Part shown: positions 13,917 to 26,791 of the stretch, piece by piece
Position numbering within the stretch: the first letter of the stretch is position 1
Layout of the letters: each line of letters starts with the position of its first letter
Assembly: GCF_027625935.1 (NCBI RefSeq)
Contig: NZ_CP115300.1
Coordinates: 4,960,001-5,024,000, forward strand
Direction of reading: 5' to 3'
Source of the DNA: Streptomyces camelliae
Lineage (GTDB): Bacteria; Actinomycetota; Actinomycetes; Streptomycetales; Streptomycetaceae
DNA length: 64,000 bases
Made by a program: the position numbers and the translations under genes
The notes under the pieces: generated by a model
What the model was told of the DNA's origin: nothing
What the model saw: only the letters and a program-made list of their open reading frames with translations
Database searches by the model: none

Positions 13917-14756
13917 GTGCCGCAGCGCAGGGCGATCACAGGTCGTAGCCAGGAGCCGAGGGCTCGTTTCGCCGAGGAGTTGCGGTTACTGCGCGCGATG
14001 AAGGGCGTGAGCTTGCGGGCGCTGGCGGATGCGGTGGGCTGGGACGCGTCGCTGTTCGGGAAGATGGAGAAGGGGCAGACGCTCGGGGGACCGGAGGTCG
14101 TAGAGGCGCTGGATCTGTACTACGGCACGGGCGACAAGTTGCTCACGCTGTGGGAGTTGGCGATGGCCGACCAGACGCAGTTCAGGGAGCGGTATCGGCG
14201 GTACATGCTGCTTGAGGCCGAGGCGGTGAGTATGTGGCAGTACTCGCCGGGCATCATGCCTGGCCTGCTGCAAACTCCCGAGTACGCCACCGAGTTGCTC
14301 CAGCAGGGCGGGCTGACGGGTGCTGAGCTGGAGAAGCAGGTGGCAGCCCGTATGGGACGCCGGGAACTGCTGCTGGCGGAGGGCGGGCCGCAGTTCCGCG
14401 CGATCCTCTCCGAGGCGGTGTTGCGCACCCCGCTCCGTGATCCGGAGGCGTGGCGGGTGCAATTGCGCCATCTTCTGGAGATGGGGGAGCGCCCCAATGT
14501 CATCGTCCAGGTGCTGCCGTCGGCGAAGGGGCTGCATGGGCTGACGGACACCGACACCATGTTCCTGCAAGGCCCCGCAGGGACCGTCGCCTGGGTGGAA
14601 ACGGGCTACTCAGGCGAACTGGTCCAAGAAAGTACGGCTGTCCAGCGGCTCCAGCTTCGATACGATCGAGTACGCGATTTGGCCCTAACCCCGGACGAAT
14701 CGCGGGAGTTCATCAAGCGGATGCTGGAGGAAGCGCCATGCGAGCCATCGACCTGA
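13917..14756 (+). CDS. XRE regulator with DUF5753 (Scr1-type)
   Basis: A 279-residue protein. The helix-turn-helix is at about 17-75 (LRAMKGVSLRALADAVGW, DASLFGKMEKG). A DUF5753 domain fills the rest (YSPGIMPGLLQTPEYATELL, VIVQVLPSAKGLHGL). Streptomycetes carry many such regulators paired with a DUF397 protein; WhiJ and the Scr1/Scr2 pair are examples that behave like antitoxin/toxin-type or developmental regulators. The start is GTG 13917. The last 19 bp overlap the DUF397 gene. Confidence 0.92.
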   Translation: MPQRRAITGRSQEPRARFAEELRLLRAMKGVSLRALADAVGWDASLFGKMEKGQTLGGPEVVEALDLYYGTGDKLLTLWELAMADQTQFRERYRRYMLLEAEAVSMWQYSPGIMPGLLQTPEYATELLQQGGLTGAELEKQVAARMGRRELLLAEGGPQFRAILSEAVLRTPLRDPEAWRVQLRHLLEMGERPNVIVQVLPSAKGLHGLTDTDTMFLQGPAGTVAWVETGYSGELVQESTAVQRLQLRYDRVRDLALTPDESREFIKRMLEEAPCEPST

Positions 14757-15016
14757 GCAACGTGACGTGGCGCAAGAGCAGCTACAGCAACCAGGACGGC
14801 GGCGCCTGCGTCGAGGTCTCCGACGATCTCCTGGCCGCGGCCGACTGGCGCAAGAGCAGCTACAGCAACCAGGACGGCGGCAACTGCCTGGAGATCGCCG
14901 ACAACCTCCCCGCCAAGGGCCTCGTCCCCGTCCGCGACAGCAAGGACACCACCCGCACCCCCCTCCTCTTCGGCGCCCCCGCCTGGAAGGCTTTCGTCGA
15001 CGGCGTCAAGGGCTGA
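14738..15016 (+). CDS. DUF397 protein with internally duplicated motif
   Basis: A 92-residue partner of the upstream XRE gene. DUF397 proteins normally carry one WRKSSYSN-type motif. Here it occurs twice (about residues 11-22 and 37-48), and the underlying DNA is identical for at least 35 bp, showing a recent internal duplication of about 80 bp. The usual C-terminal VPVRDSKD and W-x-AF-V-x-G-V elements are present once. The ATG at 14738 lies within the end of the XRE gene, so translation is coupled. Confidence 0.92.
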   Translation: MRAIDLSNVTWRKSSYSNQDGGACVEVSDDLLAAADWRKSSYSNQDGGNCLEIADNLPAKGLVPVRDSKDTTRTPLLFGAPAWKAFVDGVKG

Positions 15017-18534: not shown

Positions 18535-19818
18535 ATGAGCGACCTGGACGTACGCACCATCGGTGAGGACGAGCGCGAGAACTGGCTGCGGGCCGTGAAC
18601 ACCGGCTTCCTGAGCCCGCCCACCCCGGGCGAGGACCAGCTGGAGCTCAGCCGCCGGACGGACGCCGAGGGCTCGTCCCGGCGGCTCGGCGCCTTCGACG
18701 GTGACCGGTGCGTGGGGACGCTGCGCTCCTTCCCGCAGCAACTCACCGCGGTCGGCGGTGCGTTCGTCCCCGCTGACGCCGTCTCCGGCGTCACCGTCAG
18801 CCCCACCCACCGGCGCCGGGGCCTGCTCACCCGCATGCTGGGCCGGGACCTCGCGGCGGCGAAGGAGCGCGGTGACGTCGTCGCCACGCTGATCGCCGCC
18901 GAGTACCCGATCTACGGCCGCTACGGCTTCGGCCCGGCGAGCTGGGCCGCCCAGTGGGCCGTCGAGGTGCCCCGGGCCGGTCTCGACGCGCGCTGGGCCG
19001 GTCCCGCGGGTGGGGGTCCCTCCCGCGCGAGCGAAGCCGAGCGTGGGGGAGGCCGGATCGATCTGATCGACGGCGCCGAGGTACGCAAGCTCGGCCCCGA
19101 GCTGCATGAGCGGTTCCGGGCCGGGCAGCCCGGCGCGGTCAGCCGTATCCCGGCGTGGTGGGACCTGGCCACCGGCGTCCTGCGCTCCGGCCCGGACTGG
19201 AAGGAGCCCTTCCACGCCGTCTACCGCGCGGCCTCCGGCGAGGTCGAGGGCCTGGTGTCGTACAAGGCCGAGCACGTCTGGCAGGGCAACCAGCCGGAGG
19301 ACGCCCTCACCGTGAACTGGCTGCTCGCCACCACCCCGGCGGCCGAGCGCGCCCTGTGGCACTACCTGTGCTCGATCGACTGGGTGGCCAGGGTGACCAG
19401 CGGCCGGCGCGCCCCGGACGACCTGCTGCCCCACCTCCTGCCCGACCCCCGCGCGGCCCGCGTCACCGAGCACACGGACTGGCTGTGGGTGCGGATCCTG
19501 GACGTCGTACGGGCCCTGGAGGCGCGGACGTACGAGACGGCCGGTGCGGTGGTTCTTGAGGTCGTCGACAAGGACGGATACGGCGGGGGGCGGTTCCGGC
19601 TGGAGGCCTCGGCGGAGGGCGCGTCCTGTACGGGCACGTCCGCGACCGCCGATCTCACCCTCGACATCGGGGAGTTGGGGTCCGTATGGCTCGGCGGGGA
19701 GTCGCTGACGCGGCTCGTGGCGCTGGGCCGGGTGCGGGAAGAACGAGAGGGTGCCGCCCGCAAGGCCGACGCCCTGTTCCGCTCGCCCAGGCTCCCGTGG
19801 TGCCCGGACCTTTTTTGA
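18535..19818 (+). CDS. Eis-like GNAT N-acetyltransferase
   Basis: A 427-residue protein with the Eis architecture: an N-terminal GNAT domain with the acetyl-CoA loop ([19 protein letters not shown]), a second GNAT-like domain and a C-terminal sterol-carrier-like domain. Eis proteins acetylate amines such as aminoglycosides; the natural substrate here is unknown. An in-frame insertion at about residues 160-173 ([15 protein letters not shown]) is encoded by a GC-rich mini-element and is likely to form a surface loop. Confidence 0.9.
19011..19052. repeat. GC-rich palindromic mini-element inside a coding region
   Basis: A 42-bp sequence starting TGGGGGTCCCTCCCGCGCGA and ending GAGCGTGGGGGAGG, an imperfect hairpin (outer CTCCC pairs with GGGAG). 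It inserts 14 residues in frame in the acetyltransferase. A shorter copy lies at 39081-39115. Confidence 0.8.
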
Positions 19819-19891
19819 TGCCGGGTGTGCAGTTGTGGCTGCTGCCGACCAACTGCCCGAAGTTGGCGCAAAGTTGTACCGTTCGAGTGTG

Positions 19892-20545
19892 ATGTCGGAA
19901 GGTTCGTTCGTGCCGGGGCCGGCCGCCCTGCCGCAGCCCACGCTCGTCGGTCTGGCCCCTCGCATGACGGAGGCGTTCCAGGCACCGCACGTGACGCTCG
20001 ACGCCCTGTGTCTGACCTCGGTCTCGCTGACCCTCGCGATCGGCGAGCCGCTCCGCCTGATCCACGCCGGACGGCTCAAACCGGCCAGGATCGACGTCAG
20101 GGTGCTGCTGCCCAGCCACGACATCGACCTCGCCTTCCCGGCGCCGGTCACCGAGGACGGCGGGCTGCTGCACCGGCGCTGGCTGGCCCAGCGCAACGCC
20201 CAGGGCATGGTGCTGGCGCAGAACCTGTGGGCCCTGCGGAGCACGCACGGCATCGACGTGCACGTCTCCTTCCGCGCCCTGCCGTTCACCCCGCCGGTCA
20301 AGCTGTATCTGCTGAACGGCTCCGAGGCGCTGTTCGCGTACTACACGCTCCTGCGGCGCGAGCGGGAGATCGAGCACGAGCTTCTGGAGCTGTACGACGC
20401 CGACGGCACCCGCTCGATGCTGTTCGCCTTCGAGGCGCGGGCCGGGGTCCGGGACGCGGTGTTCGTGGAGCGGTCGCAGAAGTGGTTCGACGCGCTGTGG
20501 GAGACGATCAGTTCGGACCTGCCCCTGGGAGGCGGACGGCCGTGA
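19892..20545 (+). CDS. Stand-alone PLD-like sensor-domain protein (paralogue of next gene)
   Basis: A 217-residue protein without a DNA-binding part. It is the same domain as the C-terminal two thirds of the next gene. Shared landmarks are an N-terminal PQPTLVGLAPRMTEAFQAPH, the strand IDVRVLLPS, FRALPFTPPVKLYLLNG and the terminal ERSQKWFDALWETI. The K-L-Y-L-L-N segment recalls the Lys half of a phospholipase D HxK motif with the His lost, so it is probably a binding rather than a catalytic domain (inference). The stop overlaps the next start by 4 bp. Confidence 0.82.
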   Translation: MSEGSFVPGPAALPQPTLVGLAPRMTEAFQAPHVTLDALCLTSVSLTLAIGEPLRLIHAGRLKPARIDVRVLLPSHDIDLAFPAPVTEDGGLLHRRWLAQRNAQGMVLAQNLWALRSTHGIDVHVSFRALPFTPPVKLYLLNGSEALFAYYTLLRREREIEHELLELYDADGTRSMLFAFEARAGVRDAVFVERSQKWFDALWETISSDLPLGGGRP

Positions 20546-21438
20546 ACGGCAGCGGAAGACACACGGCCCAGGGGGTCGCCGACACTCTGCGTGAACGCAT
20601 CCGCACGGGTGCCCTGCGCCCCGGCGAGCGGCTGCCGACGCAGACCGAGCTGGCCGAGGAGTTCGGGGTCGTGCGGGGTGCCGTGCGCCAGGCGCTGCGC
20701 ATCCTCCAGCAGGAGGGCCTGCTCAGCAACGTCGGCAAGGGGAGCCCGCCACGGGCCGCCGAGCCGCGGCCGGCCAGTGAGGTCCTGCGGCCGGCCAGTG
20801 AGGTCCTGCGGCCGGCCAGTGAGGTCCCGCAGCCGACCATGGTGGCGCTCGCGCCCCGGCTGATCGAGGCGTTCGCGGCGCCGCACGTGCGCATCGAGGC
20901 CGTCTGCCTGACCGCTCAGAGCCTGATCCCGGCGCTCGGCGAGCCGCTGCGGCTGATCCACGAGGGACGGCTGCGGCCGGACCGGATCGACGCCCGGATC
21001 ATGCTGCCCAGCCGGGACATCAACCTCGCCTTCCCGGTCTCGGTCGACGCCGGGAGCGCGGAGGACGACACCGTGCACCAGCGGTGGCTGGCCATGCGCA
21101 ACGCCGTGGGGCAGGTGCTCCGGTACAACCTCCAGTCGCTGCGCGGCACCCACGACATCGACGTCCAGGTCACCTTCCGGGAGCTGCCGTTCACCCCGCC
21201 GGTCAAGCTGTACCTGCTCAACGGGGTGGAGGCGCTGTTCGCGCACTACATGATCACGCGGCGCGAGGAGCCCACCGACAGCGGCACGCTGGAGATGTAC
21301 GACACCCTCGGCTTGGAGTCCCTGCTGTTCTCCTTCGAGCAGCGGGCCGGACAGCGGGACGCGGCGTTCGTGGAGCAGTCGCAGAAGTGGTTCGACGCCC
21401 TCTGGGAAACCATCACGACGGACCTGACACTCTCCTAG
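20542..21438 (+). CDS. GntR-type regulator fused to PLD-like sensor domain
   Basis: A 298-residue protein from GTG 20542, overlapping the preceding stop. Residues 1-70 are a GntR winged helix (TLRERIRTGALRPGERLPTQ). A linker made of three PASEVLR repeats follows. Residues 95-298 are the same sensor domain as the preceding protein (MVALAPRLIEAFAAPHVRIE, FRELPFTPPVKLYLLNGVEA, SQKWFDALWETI). The pair is a clear tandem duplication in which one copy has the DNA-binding part. The next gene starts on the last base of its stop codon. Confidence 0.88.
   Translation: MNGSGRHTAQGVADTLRERIRTGALRPGERLPTQTELAEEFGVVRGAVRQALRILQQEGLLSNVGKGSPPRAAEPRPASEVLRPASEVLRPASEVPQPTMVALAPRLIEAFAAPHVRIEAVCLTAQSLIPALGEPLRLIHEGRLRPDRIDARIMLPSRDINLAFPVSVDAGSAEDDTVHQRWLAMRNAVGQVLRYNLQSLRGTHDIDVQVTFRELPFTPPVKLYLLNGVEALFAHYMITRREEPTDSGTLEMYDTLGLESLLFSFEQRAGQRDAAFVEQSQKWFDALWETITTDLTLS
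20770..20832 (+). repeat. 21-bp in-frame tandem repeat (PASEVLR linker)
   Basis: Three copies of a 21-bp unit starting CCGGCCAGTGAGGTCCTG encode a heptapeptide linker between the winged helix and the sensor domain. The third copy has diverged at its end. Repeat number can change without shifting the frame. Confidence 0.95.
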
Positions 21439-22172
21439 TGACTTCTGATGCGCATTCTGATGTGACCTCTGATGCGAGCGAGATCGAAAAGCTTCGGGAA
21501 CTGATCACACCGGCCCGCTGTGTGTTGTGGGCCTTCGACGGACCGATCTGCCGGCTGTTCGCGCGGCACACGGCGGAACGCGTGGCAGCCGAGCTGCTGG
21601 ACTGGCTGGCCGGGCGCGGGCTGCACGATCTGCTCAGCGACGTCGAGCGCGACTCGCTGGACCCGCATGTGGTGCTGCGTGCCGTGCACCGCCGGTACCC
21701 CGGCAGTGACCTCGTGGCCGAGCTGGAGGAACGCCTCACCCAGGAGGAACTGCGCGCCGCCGGTTCCGCGATGCCCACCGTCTACGCCGACCCCCTGATA
21801 CGCACCTGGACCGCGGTCGGATCCCGGCTGGCCATCACCACCGACAACTCGCCCAAGGTGGTCCGCGCCTATCTGAACGACCGTGGCCTGACGTCCTGCT
21901 TCGCCCCCCATATCTACGGCCGCACGACCGACCTGCACCTCCTCAAGCCCGACCCGCACTGCCTGAACCGGGCCCTGTCCGCGATGGGTTCCGCCCCCGA
22001 GGCGGCCCTGACGATCGGCGGCTCATCCGCCGATCTCGCCGCCGCGCACGACGCGGGCGTGCCGTTTCTCGGCTACGCGCGCAACGCGCACAAGGAGCGG
22101 CTCCTGCGGGCCGCGGGCGCCGGACTGGTCGTACAGTCGCTGGAACCGCTCCTGATGCTCCTCAGGACATAG
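21438..22172 (+). CDS. HAD-fold protein with lost catalytic residues (pseudophosphatase)
   Basis: A 244-residue HAD-superfamily protein, 1-bp overlap with the regulator gene. Compared with the active paralogue downstream, motif I DFDGP has become AFDGP (Ala32 replaces the nucleophile), and motif IV GDTPTD has become GGSSAD. The Thr of motif II and the Lys of motif III (LLKPDPH) remain. Phosphatase activity is therefore not expected. The N-terminus contains a short in-frame repeat (VTSDA twice). Confidence 0.85.
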   Translation: MTSDAHSDVTSDASEIEKLRELITPARCVLWAFDGPICRLFARHTAERVAAELLDWLAGRGLHDLLSDVERDSLDPHVVLRAVHRRYPGSDLVAELEERLTQEELRAAGSAMPTVYADPLIRTWTAVGSRLAITTDNSPKVVRAYLNDRGLTSCFAPHIYGRTTDLHLLKPDPHCLNRALSAMGSAPEAALTIGGSSADLAAAHDAGVPFLGYARNAHKERLLRAAGAGLVVQSLEPLLMLLRT

Positions 22173-22250
22173 GCCGGGTGTTCGCGGCCGGTTCCGGGGC
22201 AGGCTGGCAGGGTACGGCGGGTGACCGGTTCGAGGAGCGGGTGGAACGGC

Positions 22251-22976
22251 ATGGCTGGTACGTACGAGGACGCCGAGGAGGCGTGGCAGCTCCTGACCGA
22301 CGGGACCGGCCCGGCCTGCGTGCTGTTCGACTTCGACGGGCCGCTGTGCCGGTTGTTCCCGTACGACAGCTCGCTGCCGCTCGCGGACGCCCTGCGGGAG
22401 ACCGTGGCCGCCGAGGGCCTGCTGGACGTGCTCTCCCCGGCCGAGCGGAGCGACAAGGACCCGCACGTGGTGCTGCGCGCCGTCCACCGCGCCCGGCGGC
22501 AGCGGGACGTCGGCGACCTGGTGGCGCGAATGGAGCAGCAGGTCACCGTCGGCGAGCGGAGAGCCGCCCGGACCGCGCTGCCCACTCCTGGCGCGGCCGA
22601 GTTGATCGAGTGGCTGACCGGGCGCGGCACCCGGCTGGCCGTCGTCACGAACAACGCGGCGGCCGCGGCGGAGGACTACCTGCGCGCGAAAGGGCTGTGG
22701 GAGAGTTTCGCGGTCGTTCACGGCCGCGAAGCCGACCCCGACCTGATGAAGCCGCACCCCGACGTGCTCGACCGCGCCCTGAAGGACCTGCGCCTGCCGC
22801 CGGACGAGGCAGTGATGATCGGTGACACCCCGACGGACTTCATGGCGGCCGAGCAGGCGGGCGTCCGGTTCCTCGGCATCGGACGCAATACCGGGAAGCG
22901 GCAGCTGATGCGCGATGCCGGGGCCAAGATCGTGCTGGCGTCGTACGCGCCCCTGCTCGCCCGGATCCCGCGCTGA
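22251..22976 (+). CDS. HAD-family hydrolase (probably active)
   Basis: A 241-residue phosphatase-like protein with the full set of HAD motifs: DFDGP (Asp27 nucleophile, Asp29 acid), VVTNN, LMKPHPD and GDTPTD. The cap domain is helical (type C1), as in phosphoglycolate phosphatases. Homology to the upstream inactive copy is evident throughout (DPHVVLRAVHR in both). An in-frame GTG at 22221 would add ten residues. The substrate is unknown; location suggests a role linked to the sensor-domain proteins. Confidence 0.87.
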   Translation: MAGTYEDAEEAWQLLTDGTGPACVLFDFDGPLCRLFPYDSSLPLADALRETVAAEGLLDVLSPAERSDKDPHVVLRAVHRARRQRDVGDLVARMEQQVTVGERRAARTALPTPGAAELIEWLTGRGTRLAVVTNNAAAAAEDYLRAKGLWESFAVVHGREADPDLMKPHPDVLDRALKDLRLPPDEAVMIGDTPTDFMAAEQAGVRFLGIGRNTGKRQLMRDAGAKIVLASYAPLLARIPR

Positions 22977-23067
22977 ACCGGACCGGTGCGACCCTCTTCC
23001 TGAGCGGACCCGGCACCGGGCACCATGAACGGCACGATTCCAACGCGCCTGCCAGTAGGGGGATTTG

Positions 23068-24060
23068 GTGGCGGAGAGCACGTTGAGGAGCAGGGTGGCG
23101 GCCGGCTGGGCGCGGGCCGAGGGCACGGTGTCGAAGGTCGTGCTGCTGGCCGTGTTCGGCCTGAACCTGGTGGCCCAGTTCGTGAAGCCGCTGGGCGACG
23201 CCCTGCAGGGCAACGTCTACATCGGCGGGGCGCTGCTCAGCCTGGTGGGCTTCCTGCTCTACAGCGAGGTGCAGCGGCTGAACTCGGCCCACGAGACCCA
23301 GCGGGAGACCACGGCGGAGCTGCGGGACACCATCCGGGTCCTGAGCGGGCAGGTGGCCCTGCTCGGCGAGGCCCAGCGGTCGGCGGCCGGGGCGCCGATC
23401 ACCCAGAACCAGGTGCTGGCGGAGTTCCACAGCGCGCTGCGGGACAAGGAGCGGGTCGAGTTCCGCGTCATGTGCTTCACCGGGGAGACCGTCGTCACCA
23501 GCCTCAAGGAGTCCCTCCAGGCCCTGCCCGCCTACGCGGGGCGCGAGGTGACCGTGCGGTTCCTCGTCCCGGACTTCCTGCGGGAGATGGACGTGCCGGG
23601 GCAGGTGGTCGACGGCCAGGCGTGTGACTCGCCCGAGTTCCGCGCCCGCCTGGACGACCAGGTCCGCCGCTACGAGCGGGACCTGAAGCAGGCCAAGGTC
23701 CGGATGCGCGACCGCGGACAGGGAAACCTGTCGGTCGAGTTCCAGGTGCTGCACTTCACGCCGGGCGAGAAGCTGTATCTGATCGACGACAGCTTCATGG
23801 CCGAGGGCGCGTACGACAAGGCCGTGCTGTGGCCCGACGAGAACGGCAGGCAGGTGCTCGACCTCCTCGGGAACGAGGTGATGCTGACCGGCTGGCGCTG
23901 GGAGGACGGACAGCGGGCGCGGGACACCATCAGCCGCAAACGGGAGTACTTCGACACCCTCTGGAACCAGGCCCGTGCCCTGACCGCACCCGCCTCGGCG
24001 ACTCCGGCGCCCCCGGCTGCCCCGGCAACCCCGGTCCCGGCTCCCCAGAGCGGTGACTGA
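23068..24060 (+). CDS. Membrane-anchored PLD-like sensor-domain protein
   Basis: A 330-residue protein. Two membrane helices (about 23-42 and 50-69) are followed by a coiled coil (QRLNSAHETQRETTAELRDT) and a soluble domain that aligns with the two upstream sensor domains: VEFRVMCFTGETVVTSLKES, VTVRFLVPDFLREMDVP, PGEKLYLIDDSFM and REYFDTLWNQA. Here the K-x4-D half of an HxKxxxxD motif is intact, but the His is Gly. A Pro/Ala tail ends the protein. GTG 23068 is preferred because of the GTAGGGGGA site. Confidence 0.85.
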   Translation: MAESTLRSRVAAGWARAEGTVSKVVLLAVFGLNLVAQFVKPLGDALQGNVYIGGALLSLVGFLLYSEVQRLNSAHETQRETTAELRDTIRVLSGQVALLGEAQRSAAGAPITQNQVLAEFHSALRDKERVEFRVMCFTGETVVTSLKESLQALPAYAGREVTVRFLVPDFLREMDVPGQVVDGQACDSPEFRARLDDQVRRYERDLKQAKVRMRDRGQGNLSVEFQVLHFTPGEKLYLIDDSFMAEGAYDKAVLWPDENGRQVLDLLGNEVMLTGWRWEDGQRARDTISRKREYFDTLWNQARALTAPASATPAPPAAPATPVPAPQSGD

Positions 24061-24080: not shown

Positions 24081-24695
24081 ATGGGTGAGATGGGCCTGCG
24101 TGAGCGCAAGAAGCAGCGGATGTACCAGGACGTGTCGGACATCGCCGTACGGCTGTTCCTGGAGCGGGGCTTCGACGCGGTGTCCGTGGCGGAGGTCGCC
24201 GCCGCGGCCGGGATCTCCAAGCCGACTCTCTTCCGGTACTTCCCGGCCAAGGAGGACCTGGTCCTGCACCGGATCGCCGACCACGAGACGGAGGCCGCGC
24301 GGGTGGTCGCCGGTGCGGCCGACCCGGTGGACGTGCTGCGCCGGCACTTCCTCGCCGGGCTGGAGCGCCGCGACCCGGTCACCGGCCTGAACGACCACCC
24401 GGCCGTCCTCGCCTTCCACACCCTGCTCTACGGCACCCCGTCCCTGGTCGCACGGGCGTACCGGCACCAGGAGCGGTCGGAGGCGGCCCTCGCCGAGGCG
24501 CTCGGCGGGGACCTGGACGCCCGGCTCGCCGCCGGGCAGATCATCGCCGTGCAGCGGATCCTCGCGCTGGAGAACTTCCGGCGGATCGCGGCGGGGGAGC
24601 CGGTCGAGGGGGTGGCGCCGGACGCCGTACGGGCCGCCGAGCGGGCGTTCGCGCGGCTGGCGAAGTGTCTGCCGCGCCTGGATGTCGATGAATGA
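24081..24695 (+). CDS. TetR-family regulator
   Basis: A 204-residue TetR regulator. The HTH is at about 15-60 (VAEVAAAAGISKPTLFRYFP). The ligand domain is helical. The gene is 50 bp upstream of the HelD-like helicase, same strand, with an inverted repeat in the gap that is a candidate operator. It probably represses the helicase gene; the ligand is unknown. Confidence 0.9.
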   Translation: MGEMGLRERKKQRMYQDVSDIAVRLFLERGFDAVSVAEVAAAAGISKPTLFRYFPAKEDLVLHRIADHETEAARVVAGAADPVDVLRRHFLAGLERRDPVTGLNDHPAVLAFHTLLYGTPSLVARAYRHQERSEAALAEALGGDLDARLAAGQIIAVQRILALENFRRIAAGEPVEGVAPDAVRAAERAFARLAKCLPRLDVDE

Positions 24696-24745: not shown

Positions 24746-26791
24746 ATGACGTCACTCGATCCCGCCCTCACCGACCCCGCCCTCACCGAAACCCTCCACG
24801 CCGAGCGCGCCCACCACGACCGCTGCCGTGCCGCCCTCACCGCGATGATCGAGGGCGCCGCCGAGCAGGTCGTCATCGGCGAGGACGTCTCCGCCTCCGG
24901 GGCCGACGCCGAGGTGCTCGGACACCGGCTGCGCAGCCAGGCCAAGGAGCTGCGCGAACTCCCGCCCGGCCCGCTGTTCTTCGGCCGCCTGGACTTCGCC
25001 GACGACGACCCCGGGCACGGCGGCATGGACTACCACGTGGGCCGCCTCCGCATCACCGAGGACCCGGCCGCCCCGCCCCTTGTGATCGACTGGCGGGCCC
25101 CCGTCTCCCGCGCCTTCTACCAGGCGAGCGCCCGCGATCCCCAGGGTGTGGAGATACGGCGCCGGTTCGGCTGGGCGCCCGGCGGCAGCGGCGACTCCGC
25201 CGACCTCACCGGGCTGGAGGACGAGTACCTGGGCCGGGGCGATTCCCGGACCAGCGACATCGTCGCCCGCGAGATCGAGCGGCCCCGGGTCGGCCCCATG
25301 CGGGACATCGCCGCCACCATCCAGCCCGAACAGGACGACCTGGTCCGCGCCGCCCTCACCGACTCGGTGTGCGTCCAGGGCGCCCCCGGCACCGGCAAGA
25401 CCGCCGTGGGCCTGCACCGCGCCGCCTACCTCCTCTACACCCACCCCAAACGGCTCCAGCGCGCCGGCCTGCTGATCCTCGGCCCCAACCGCACGTTCCT
25501 CTCCTACATCGCCGAGGTGCTGCCGTCCCTGGGGGAGTCAGGGGTCCGGCAGGCCACCCTGCCGGAGGAGATCGCCCACCAGCCGGTCAAGGGCACCGAC
25601 CCCGTGGCCACCGCCACCGTCAAGCACGATGCCCGCATGGCCGAGGTGCTGCGCCGGGCGCTGTACGCGCGCGTGAGCACCGAGGGGATCGCCGACCTCG
25701 CCGTACCGGACGGCTCGTACCGCTGGCGGGTGTCCGCCGCCGAGCTGGCCGGCATCGTCGCGGAGGTGCGCGCCGAGGAGCCGCCGTACGCCATCGGGCG
25801 GGAGCGGGTGCGCACCCGGGTGGTACGGCGGCTGCGCGAGCAGGCCGAGCGGCGCTCCGGGGTGCTGCCGGCCGCCTGGGTGCGCCGCATCGAACGGGCC
25901 CGGCCGCTGACCGCCCACCTGGACGCGGTGTGGCCGAAGGCCCGCCCGGAGGAGGTGCTCGCCGAACTCCTCACGGACGCACGGGCGTTGGCGCGGGCGG
26001 CGGACGGCCTCCTGGACCCGGACGAGCAGGCGGCACTGGTGTGGCCCCGCCCGCCGCGCTCGTACAAGTCGGCCCGCTGGTCGGCGGCGGATCTGGTGCT
26101 CCTGGACGAGTTGTCGGGGCTGATCGAGCACCCCGAGGGCTATGGGCACATCGTGGTGGACGAGGCGCAGGACCTGTCGCCCATGGAGTGCCGGGCGATC
26201 GCCCGCCGGGCCGCCTTCGGCTCGCTGACCGTCCTCGGCGACCTCGCCCAGGGCACCACCCCGTGGGCCGCCCGCGACTGGCCGGCCCAGCTGCGCCACC
26301 TTGGCAAACCGGACGCGACGGTGGTGCCGCTGACGACCGGCTTCCGGGTACCGGCGGCCGTCGTCGCCCTGGCCAACAGGCTGCTGGCGGGCCTGGACGT
26401 GTCGGTCCCGGCCGCCCGGTCCCTGCGCACCGACGGGGAGGTGAGGCTCCGGCCGACGACGGACGTGCCGGGCACGACGGTCACGGCGGTCCGCGAGGCG
26501 CTGGCCCGGGAGGGCTCGGTGGGTGTGGTCGCGGCGGACGCGGACACGGTGGACGTGGCGGCGGCCCTGACGGCGGCCGGGATCGCCACGTCCGGCCCGG
26601 ACACACTGGGCGCCCGGGTGACCGTCGTACCGGCGAGCATGGTCAAGGGCCTGGAGTACGACCACGTGGTGGCCGTGGAACCGGCGGCGGTCGCGGAGGC
26701 GGAGGAGCGGGGCGCGCACCGGCTGTACGTCGTCCTGACCCGGGCGGTGTCCCGGCTGGACGTGATCCACTCCCGCCCGCTGCCGTTCTGA
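24746..26791 (+). CDS. HelD/HelR-like RNA-polymerase-associated helicase
   Basis: A 681-residue SF1 (UvrD/Rep-type) ATPase of the HelD class. A coiled N-terminal arm precedes the ATPase. Walker A GAPGTGKT is at about 210, Walker B VVDEAQD at about 470, motif V KGLEYDHV and motif VI VVLTRAVSRL at about 660. HelD proteins bind RNA polymerase, insert arms into its channels and release stalled complexes; actinobacterial HelR proteins can displace rifamycin. Whether this one protects against rifamycin is inference. The upstream TetR gene suggests inducible expression. Confidence 0.88.
   Translation: MTSLDPALTDPALTETLHAERAHHDRCRAALTAMIEGAAEQVVIGEDVSASGADAEVLGHRLRSQAKELRELPPGPLFFGRLDFADDDPGHGGMDYHVGRLRITEDPAAPPLVIDWRAPVSRAFYQASARDPQGVEIRRRFGWAPGGSGDSADLTGLEDEYLGRGDSRTSDIVAREIERPRVGPMRDIAATIQPEQDDLVRAALTDSVCVQGAPGTGKTAVGLHRAAYLLYTHPKRLQRAGLLILGPNRTFLSYIAEVLPSLGESGVRQATLPEEIAHQPVKGTDPVATATVKHDARMAEVLRRALYARVSTEGIADLAVPDGSYRWRVSAAELAGIVAEVRAEEPPYAIGRERVRTRVVRRLREQAERRSGVLPAAWVRRIERARPLTAHLDAVWPKARPEEVLAELLTDARALARAADGLLDPDEQAALVWPRPPRSYKSARWSAADLVLLDELSGLIEHPEGYGHIVVDEAQDLSPMECRAIARRAAFGSLTVLGDLAQGTTPWAARDWPAQLRHLGKPDATVVPLTTGFRVPAAVVALANRLLAGLDVSVPAARSLRTDGEVRLRPTTDVPGTTVTAVREALAREGSVGVVAADADTVDVAAALTAAGIATSGPDTLGARVTVVPASMVKGLEYDHVVAVEPAAVAEAEERGAHRLYVVLTRAVSRLDVIHSRPLPF

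Follow-up and report, generated by a model that had tools for sequence, protein, structure and literature searches.

A probable, remodelled dev locus in Streptomyces camelliae and its predicted phospholipase D-fold sensor domain

Sporulation genes of Streptomyces coelicolor include devE (SCO4188), devA (SCO4190) and the co-transcribed phosphatase gene devB, and passages of a 2011 study by Clark and Hoskisson describe DevA as a repressor of devA-devB and report developmental phenotypes for devA, devE and devB mutants, those of devA and devE being distinct (PMC3187754). In these passages, what is understood of the metabolites that DevA and DevE sense is called ‘still in its early stages’. devC (SCO4189) is reported to lie between devE and devA. 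As for the following genes, excerpts of other reports list SCO4193 as a ‘putative ATP/GTP-binding membrane protein’ (PMC4340878), SCO4194 as the TetR regulator AcrT, for which binding to the actI-ORF1 promoter is reported (PMC8546615), and SCO4195 as HelD, a protein of 680 amino acids (PMC8655204). Here, we analyse five consecutive genes (A to E) within a 64,000-nt stretch of Streptomyces camelliae DNA (NZ_CP115300.1, positions 4,960,001 to 5,024,000; hereafter the window), which very likely form the dev locus of this species in a remodelled state, with A corresponding to devE, B to devA and C to devB.

Five genes in the arrangement of a dev locus

The window is Streptomyces DNA, the named relatives of its proteins all belonging to this genus. 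After verification of reading frames and coordinates, genes A–E were found to run in one direction (plus strand) from 19889 to 24060, with overlaps of 4 bp between A and B (20542–20545) and of 1 bp between B and C (21438), and with spacers of 78 bp between C and D and 91 bp between D and E. The original prediction, made from the letters of this stretch, had described five co-directional genes, three of them overlapping, and was right on this point.

From matching domain architecture, gene order and flanks, we infer orthology of A, B and C with devE, devA and devB. Like the window locus, the S. coelicolor cluster comprises two tandem GntR genes with a HAD gene right after the second, followed by TetR and HelD genes according to locus numbers. 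The gene order matches SCO4188–SCO4195 by locus number, with E in the position of SCO4193, a TetR regulator (24081..24695, +; Pfam TetR_N) in that of SCO4194, and a UvrD-like helicase of 681 amino acids (24746..26791, +; Pfam UvrD-helicase, E=3.1e-6) in that of HelD. The earlier statement that no system of this composition had been described is not supported: A, B and C correspond to devE, devA and devB, for which passages of PMC3187754 give sporulation phenotypes, and a membrane protein, SCO4193, stands in the position of E (excerpts of PMC4340878).

Gene A (19889..20545, +) codes for a sensor domain 63% identical to that of B across 205 amino acids. Its more likely start is the GTG at 19889, because the other strain, Streptomyces sp. 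CoH27, has no ATG at the following codon (P0001: V-T-S-E-G). By eye, the DNA upstream of A is similar, as far as this GTG, to devE promoters from relatives; behind the GTG, the stretch coding for the winged helix is gone, in frame. No GntR winged helix was detected (no Pfam match up to E=1 and no NCBIfam match for the gene), and ~70 bp separate A from the stop codon of the preceding GNAT gene. CoH27 harbors the same sensor-only form, with A being 98.6% identical between the strains. Judged by its sequence, A is devE-derived and not a DNA-binding DevE; the ‘sensor alone’ gene of the original prediction would then be devE minus its winged helix, a form seen in no other species at this position.

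Gene B (20542..21438, +) has retained the N-terminal GntR winged helix (Pfam GntR, E=2.9e-17) in front of its sensor, and is preceded by the devE paralogue and directly followed by a HAD gene, as expected of a devA-type regulator. Its linker (20770–20830) contains three copies of a seven-amino-acid repeat (RPASEVL/P), and a seven-amino-acid gap in the CoH27 alignment suggests that the repeat number varies between strains.

Genes C (21438..22172, +) and D (22251..22976, +; Pfam HAD_2, E=4.2e-22) encode HAD paralogues sharing 44% identity. In the devB-type protein C, motif I reads AFDG (DFDG in relatives) and motif IV reads GG (GD in relatives), meaning that both the nucleophilic Asp of motif I (Asp to Ala) and the Asp of motif IV (Asp to Gly) are missing, and we predict C to be catalytically inactive. 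All catalytic residues of HAD motifs I–IV are present in D, a candidate active HAD phosphatase. The pairing of a dead with a live HAD, as first proposed, was borne out at this level.

One sensor domain in three formats and its predicted fold

Gene E (23068..24060, +; GTG at 23068 as the more likely start, with P0121 starting MAESTL) bears hydrophobic segments at residues ~18–44 and 46–69 in its hydropathy profile as well as a long helix (residues 51–108) in the AlphaFold2 (AF2) model, in agreement with its earlier description as a membrane-type version of the sensor. Many of its relatives carry the NCBI name ‘ATP/GTP-binding protein’; Pfam and NCBIfam scans of E returned no nucleotide-binding family.

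E aligns with A at 26% identity across 178 amino acids (E=1e-9), and searches of the whole genome recovered E with A as the query (8.9e-5), and both B (3.4e-6) and A (2.0e-4) with E as the query. Comparison by hhalign of a GntR-only sensor profile (19 sequences) with an E-family profile (57 sequences) gave a probability of 99.6% and E=2.5e-24 over 192 columns. At the sequence level, E is homologous to A and B, with a likeness far above chance. This homology had been named beforehand as the point at which the idea of one domain in three formats—alone in A, on a GntR winged helix in B, and membrane-type in E—could be refuted, and it held in the profile–profile comparison.

No family in Pfam, NCBIfam or PADLOC is dedicated to the sensor domain. 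For E, a weak match to Pfam DUF7543 (E=1.2e-4) lies below Pfam's cut-off, and sequence searches of solved structures returned nearly exclusively GntR-type winged-helix chains, or nothing convincing. A role in antiphage defence was considered and dropped, the PADLOC matches being weak (best E=0.0056). At a locus away from dev (L098:8254–8883), a sensor was seen by eye to follow an XRE-like helix-turn-helix (HTH) stretch instead of a GntR winged helix, which is possibly a fourth format.

In the AF2 models of B (predicted local distance difference test score, pLDDT, of 91) and E (pLDDT of 84), residues ~90–298 of the former and the model of the latter match structures of the phospholipase D (PLD) fold. 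The sensor domain is thus predicted to adopt a PLD fold, with the sugar-binding domain of TrmB as its nearest neighbor, an assignment that is new here. The HxKxxxxD motif of PLD enzymes was not found: in three overlapping sets of aligned sequences, the catalytic His was present in 0/65, 0/57 and 0/23, the Lys was kept in 64/65, 53/57 and 23/23, and the Asp is mostly Asn. Lys, Arg and Asn residues are conserved in the domain, the basic ones in both the GntR-sensor and the E family, and are compatible with a phosphorylated ligand. As modelled, the sensor is probably non-catalytic and would bind an anionic, likely phosphorylated small metabolite. Alternatively, the domain might mainly serve as a platform for dimerisation or protein binding and bind no small molecule. 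This alternative, to which the absence of the catalytic His throughout would also conform, draws on the PLD-fold domain of FAM83B, a scaffold that matches both the B and the E model; we consider it quite unlikely.

Conservation of the locus and its state in this species

Query A matched in 79 of 121 Streptomyces genomes, and the sensor profile in 28 of 246 genomes of the class, representing five of 103 genera (own genome included in both counts). In nine regions from outside Streptomyces, two of which are short (3.2 and 9 kb), the GntR-sensor gene invariably adjoins a HAD gene (9/9), with a winged helix being detected in eight. Within the genus, 40 regions were chosen from the matches, i.e. 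not at random, and 39 were kept after one placeholder had been dropped. Thirty of these are syntenic dev loci and contain a HAD gene in 29, an APH-family kinase gene in 27 and an E gene in 11 cases (one of the latter on the other strand); direct adjacency of GntR-sensor and HAD genes was seen in 26 of the 30, and in five of the nine other regions. A scan for the E family yielded 53 loci, all Streptomyces by title and partly from the same genomes as the syntenic regions (e.g. L073, L107), with a GntR-sensor gene in 51, a HAD gene in 52 (including one weak piece at L113) and a kinase gene in 48. Of the E-family genes, 51/53 lie in dev loci, and 49/53 loci carry two complete GntR-sensors in tandem, the exceptions being CoH27, S. 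flaveolus, L111 and L113. The wider dev locus is hence common in Streptomyces, and the exact five-gene arrangement was seen only in the window and CoH27, which is labelled as the same species. On joint conservation of the genes, named beforehand as a second point of refutation, the outcome is mixed: it holds for the GntR-sensor/HAD pair beyond Streptomyces and for the E genes in dev loci, but not for the precise set of five. E-type genes off the dev locus were noticed at L082/L111 (at 0.6 Mb of a 10.7-Mb chromosome), L102 and L159 (near the end of a 10.0-Mb contig), and a TetR gene of the 24081–24695 type is kept beside dev genes, sometimes inverted.

With the pair of GntR-sensor and HAD as the common denominator (9/9 regions outside Streptomyces; 26/30 and 5/9 within), the system could be one of metabolite clean-up, a known task of HAD phosphatases: the GntR protein would sense a harmful phosphorylated by-product and induce the HAD that destroys it, and the developmental phenotypes would be secondary. 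We regard this as unlikely, since a linked kinase and a membrane-type sensor in Streptomyces exceed what clean-up calls for, and since devA and devE mutants differ in developmental phenotype according to passages of PMC3187754.

Six representative kinases of related loci match Pfam APH (E from 6.2e-18 to 4.7e-44), and an HxDxxxxN-type motif is present in all 29 kinase genes examined, twice in each of ten double kinases. That dev loci elsewhere often carry such kinases is new here. Together with the HAD, these kinases, which lay outside what the DNA behind the original prediction could show, point to a phosphorylated signal that, in relatives, would have both a writer and an eraser. The E-family loci without a kinase are those of CoH27 (L105), S. 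flaveolus (L107) and S. cellostaticus (L112), plus L111 and L113, the last two being E copies with little else of dev. The window locus likewise contains no APH kinase, and the writer in this species would be different or lost. The conserved basic residues are in accord with the earlier proposal of a phosphorylated ligand.

From the devE sensor to the devA winged helix, the median distance is 427 bp over 73 loci (window and duplicate records included), compared with –1 bp in the window, –7 bp in CoH27 and 36 bp in S. cellostaticus. As devC occupies this place in S. coelicolor, the overlapping A and B of the window, unlike their counterparts there, leave space for neither devC nor a devA promoter. 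Among 124 HAD matches (duplicates included), 114 possess all six catalytic positions and five are partial; the exchange of both Asp residues (to Ala and Gly) recurs in three (the window plus one CoH27 contig that is present in two copies), and a Lys-to-Glu exchange in motif III in two, which stem from one S. flaveolus record (L107). New here are the loss in this species of the devE winged helix with retention of promoter and start, and the loss of the devE–devA gap and of two catalytic Asp residues in devB. Sensors without a detected winged helix also occur at L066, L096, L098 and L109. Upon inspection, L096 and L109 look like split matches, and L098 has the other HTH-like stretch upstream. 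At L066, no winged helix is in frame with a third sensor, so other sensor-only forms may exist, and what is unique here is the position at devE. Beside this third sensor (L066:9936–12405), the opposite strand carries an E-type gene and a HAD gene.

The signalling model developed below has its main rival in a decay of A and C. In this case, A would be what is left of a truncated devE, C would be a devB in the course of being lost, the working genes would be B, D and E alone, and there would be no three-format circuit. In line with decay, a devE without its winged helix and a dead HAD were seen only in this species, the short devE–devA gap and kinase loss in this species and few others, and S. 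flaveolus (L107) is without devE and kinase and has the motif III exchange in its devB. dN/dS (the ratio of nonsynonymous to synonymous substitution rates) relative to CoH27 is 0.09 for B, 0.37 for A, 0.48 for E, 0.71 for D and, in keeping with decay, 0.79 for C; these values are noisy owing to small counts, as flanking genes range from 0.05 to 1.01 (1.01 for the TetR gene). Against decay, the frames of A and C are open over their full length in both strains, a devE-type promoter and start are preserved in A along with its 98.6% identity, and A, B and C overlap. Decay is a genuine possibility in our view, though not what we expect.

Two further features border on the dev genes. The upstream flank encodes a GNAT acetyltransferase with an SCP2_2 domain (18535..19818, +; Pfam), a neighbor at many dev loci. 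Ahead of it, 17862–18491 matches Pfam RsiG (3.7e-35, two stretches), which we take to be a c-di-GMP-binding anti-sigma factor of sporulation; as RsiG-type genes adjoin many dev loci, two developmental regulators would stand side by side in the window as at those loci. Farther away, a small open reading frame with two DUF397 domains (14738–15016; Pfam, 3.5e-30) lies directly 3′ of a gene for an XRE-type regulator, assigned by eye (13917–14756).

A candidate operator, a signalling model and described systems

A scan of the window for promoters and terminators returned no promoter and a single terminator-like site, on the minus strand, vs. 1.2 expected. The devE-type promoter in front of A contains a direct repeat, AGTTG-N6-AGTTGT (19861..19877, +), with an 11-bp period. 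Leaving out the window, the pattern AG[AT]TG-N6-AGTTGT recurs in 61/68 devE and 50/79 devA distinct upstream sequences and in 0/62 E-type and 0/47 third-GntR upstream sequences. Mononucleotide shuffles reduced the repeat to near 0; as upstream sequences are kin by descent, a better control is provided by the E-type and third-GntR sets. In its exact AGTTG form, the repeat has one match in the window and none in 100 shuffles. We infer from this conservation, which is also new here, that the repeat is a putative DevA/DevE operator.

Homology, predicted fold, motif states, conservation, lost stretches and the conserved repeat, all of them computed, can be combined into a model to which we assign a probability of roughly 55%. 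In it, DevA (B) would repress the A-B-C operon at the AGTTG-N6-AGTTG repeat, with an anionic, probably phosphorylated metabolite tuning its grip. D, like DevB as the ancestor of C, would remove the phosphate from this metabolite, such that the signal is reset by a product under DevA control; the phosphate would be added, in most relatives, by an APH-family kinase. In E, this sensor would follow two segments that probably lie in the membrane. DevE of this species would have become a sensor-only protein by losing its winged helix in frame, and may now pair with DevA or hold ligand; loss of the intergenic region would have left devA dependent on the devE promoter; and devB would have lost its catalytic Asp residues, with the kinase absent. 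Into these computed features we have read the class of the ligand, the direction in which the response runs, the function of the operator, the roles of A and E, and the orthology with S. coelicolor.

Several observations weigh against this model. The dN/dS values of both C and D suggest relaxed constraint on the two HAD genes, and a predicted PLD fold is no demonstration of ligand binding. A dev-type kinase was not found genome-wide, the best match in a search with one kinase as the query being 35 bits at 7.25 Mb, where a dev-kinase profile scored 26 bits (vs. 393 to 430 for four of five dev kinases and 88 for the fifth); phosphate would therefore have to be added otherwise. Nor was such a kinase seen in the nine non-Streptomyces regions (0/9, counting the two of only 3.2 and 9 kb). 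In the genome, the exact repeat has a single match, immediately ahead of A, yet a backwards control pattern also has one, so that uniqueness alone proves nothing; most devE copies have AGATG in the first half; and the devA-side repeat lies near a sigma-F/H/N promoter of SCO4189 (devC), mapped according to excerpts of PMC8346170, meaning that its conservation may partly be that of promoter sequence.

More broadly, sporulation might partly be governed by a phosphorylated signal that APH kinases write, DevB-type HADs erase and pseudo-PLD domains read, both on DNA (DevA, DevE) and at the membrane (E), the devE reader having become a non-DNA-binding partner of DevA and devB a pseudo-enzyme in the present species; we put this forward as a doubtful conjecture. 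In any event, fold, linked kinase and phosphatase, and membrane homologue turn the question of the DevA/DevE metabolites into a short list of tests.

No paper in the literature searched connects DevA with SCO4193, with a kinase or with a PLD fold, and ‘kinase’, ‘phospholipase’ and ‘membrane’ do not occur as words in PMC3187754. SCO4193 resembles E in preceding a TetR gene, a match by position only; for E, we add a predicted PLD-fold domain homologous to the effector domain of DevA. Single-domain PLD nucleases (Nuc, NucT, Zucchini) differ from the sensor, which is devoid of the catalytic His and mostly has Asn for the motif Asp. The archaeal regulators TrmB and TrmBL2, which provided the best structure rows for E and the top Foldseek rows for B, likewise couple a DNA-binding domain to a PLD-fold domain. 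However, no sequence relation to them was found, the winged helix here is of the GntR type, and HAD and APH genes are linked. Pfam TrmB matches in sequence set A1 accompany other HTH families, and the likeness in fold stands apart from membership in the TrmB family. Compared with the dev locus of S. coelicolor, finally, the window locus has an A gene without a winged helix, a predicted inactive C and a second HAD (D), and would represent a natural experiment in which a repressor has been deprived of its DNA-binding domain while its promoter and partner gene were kept.

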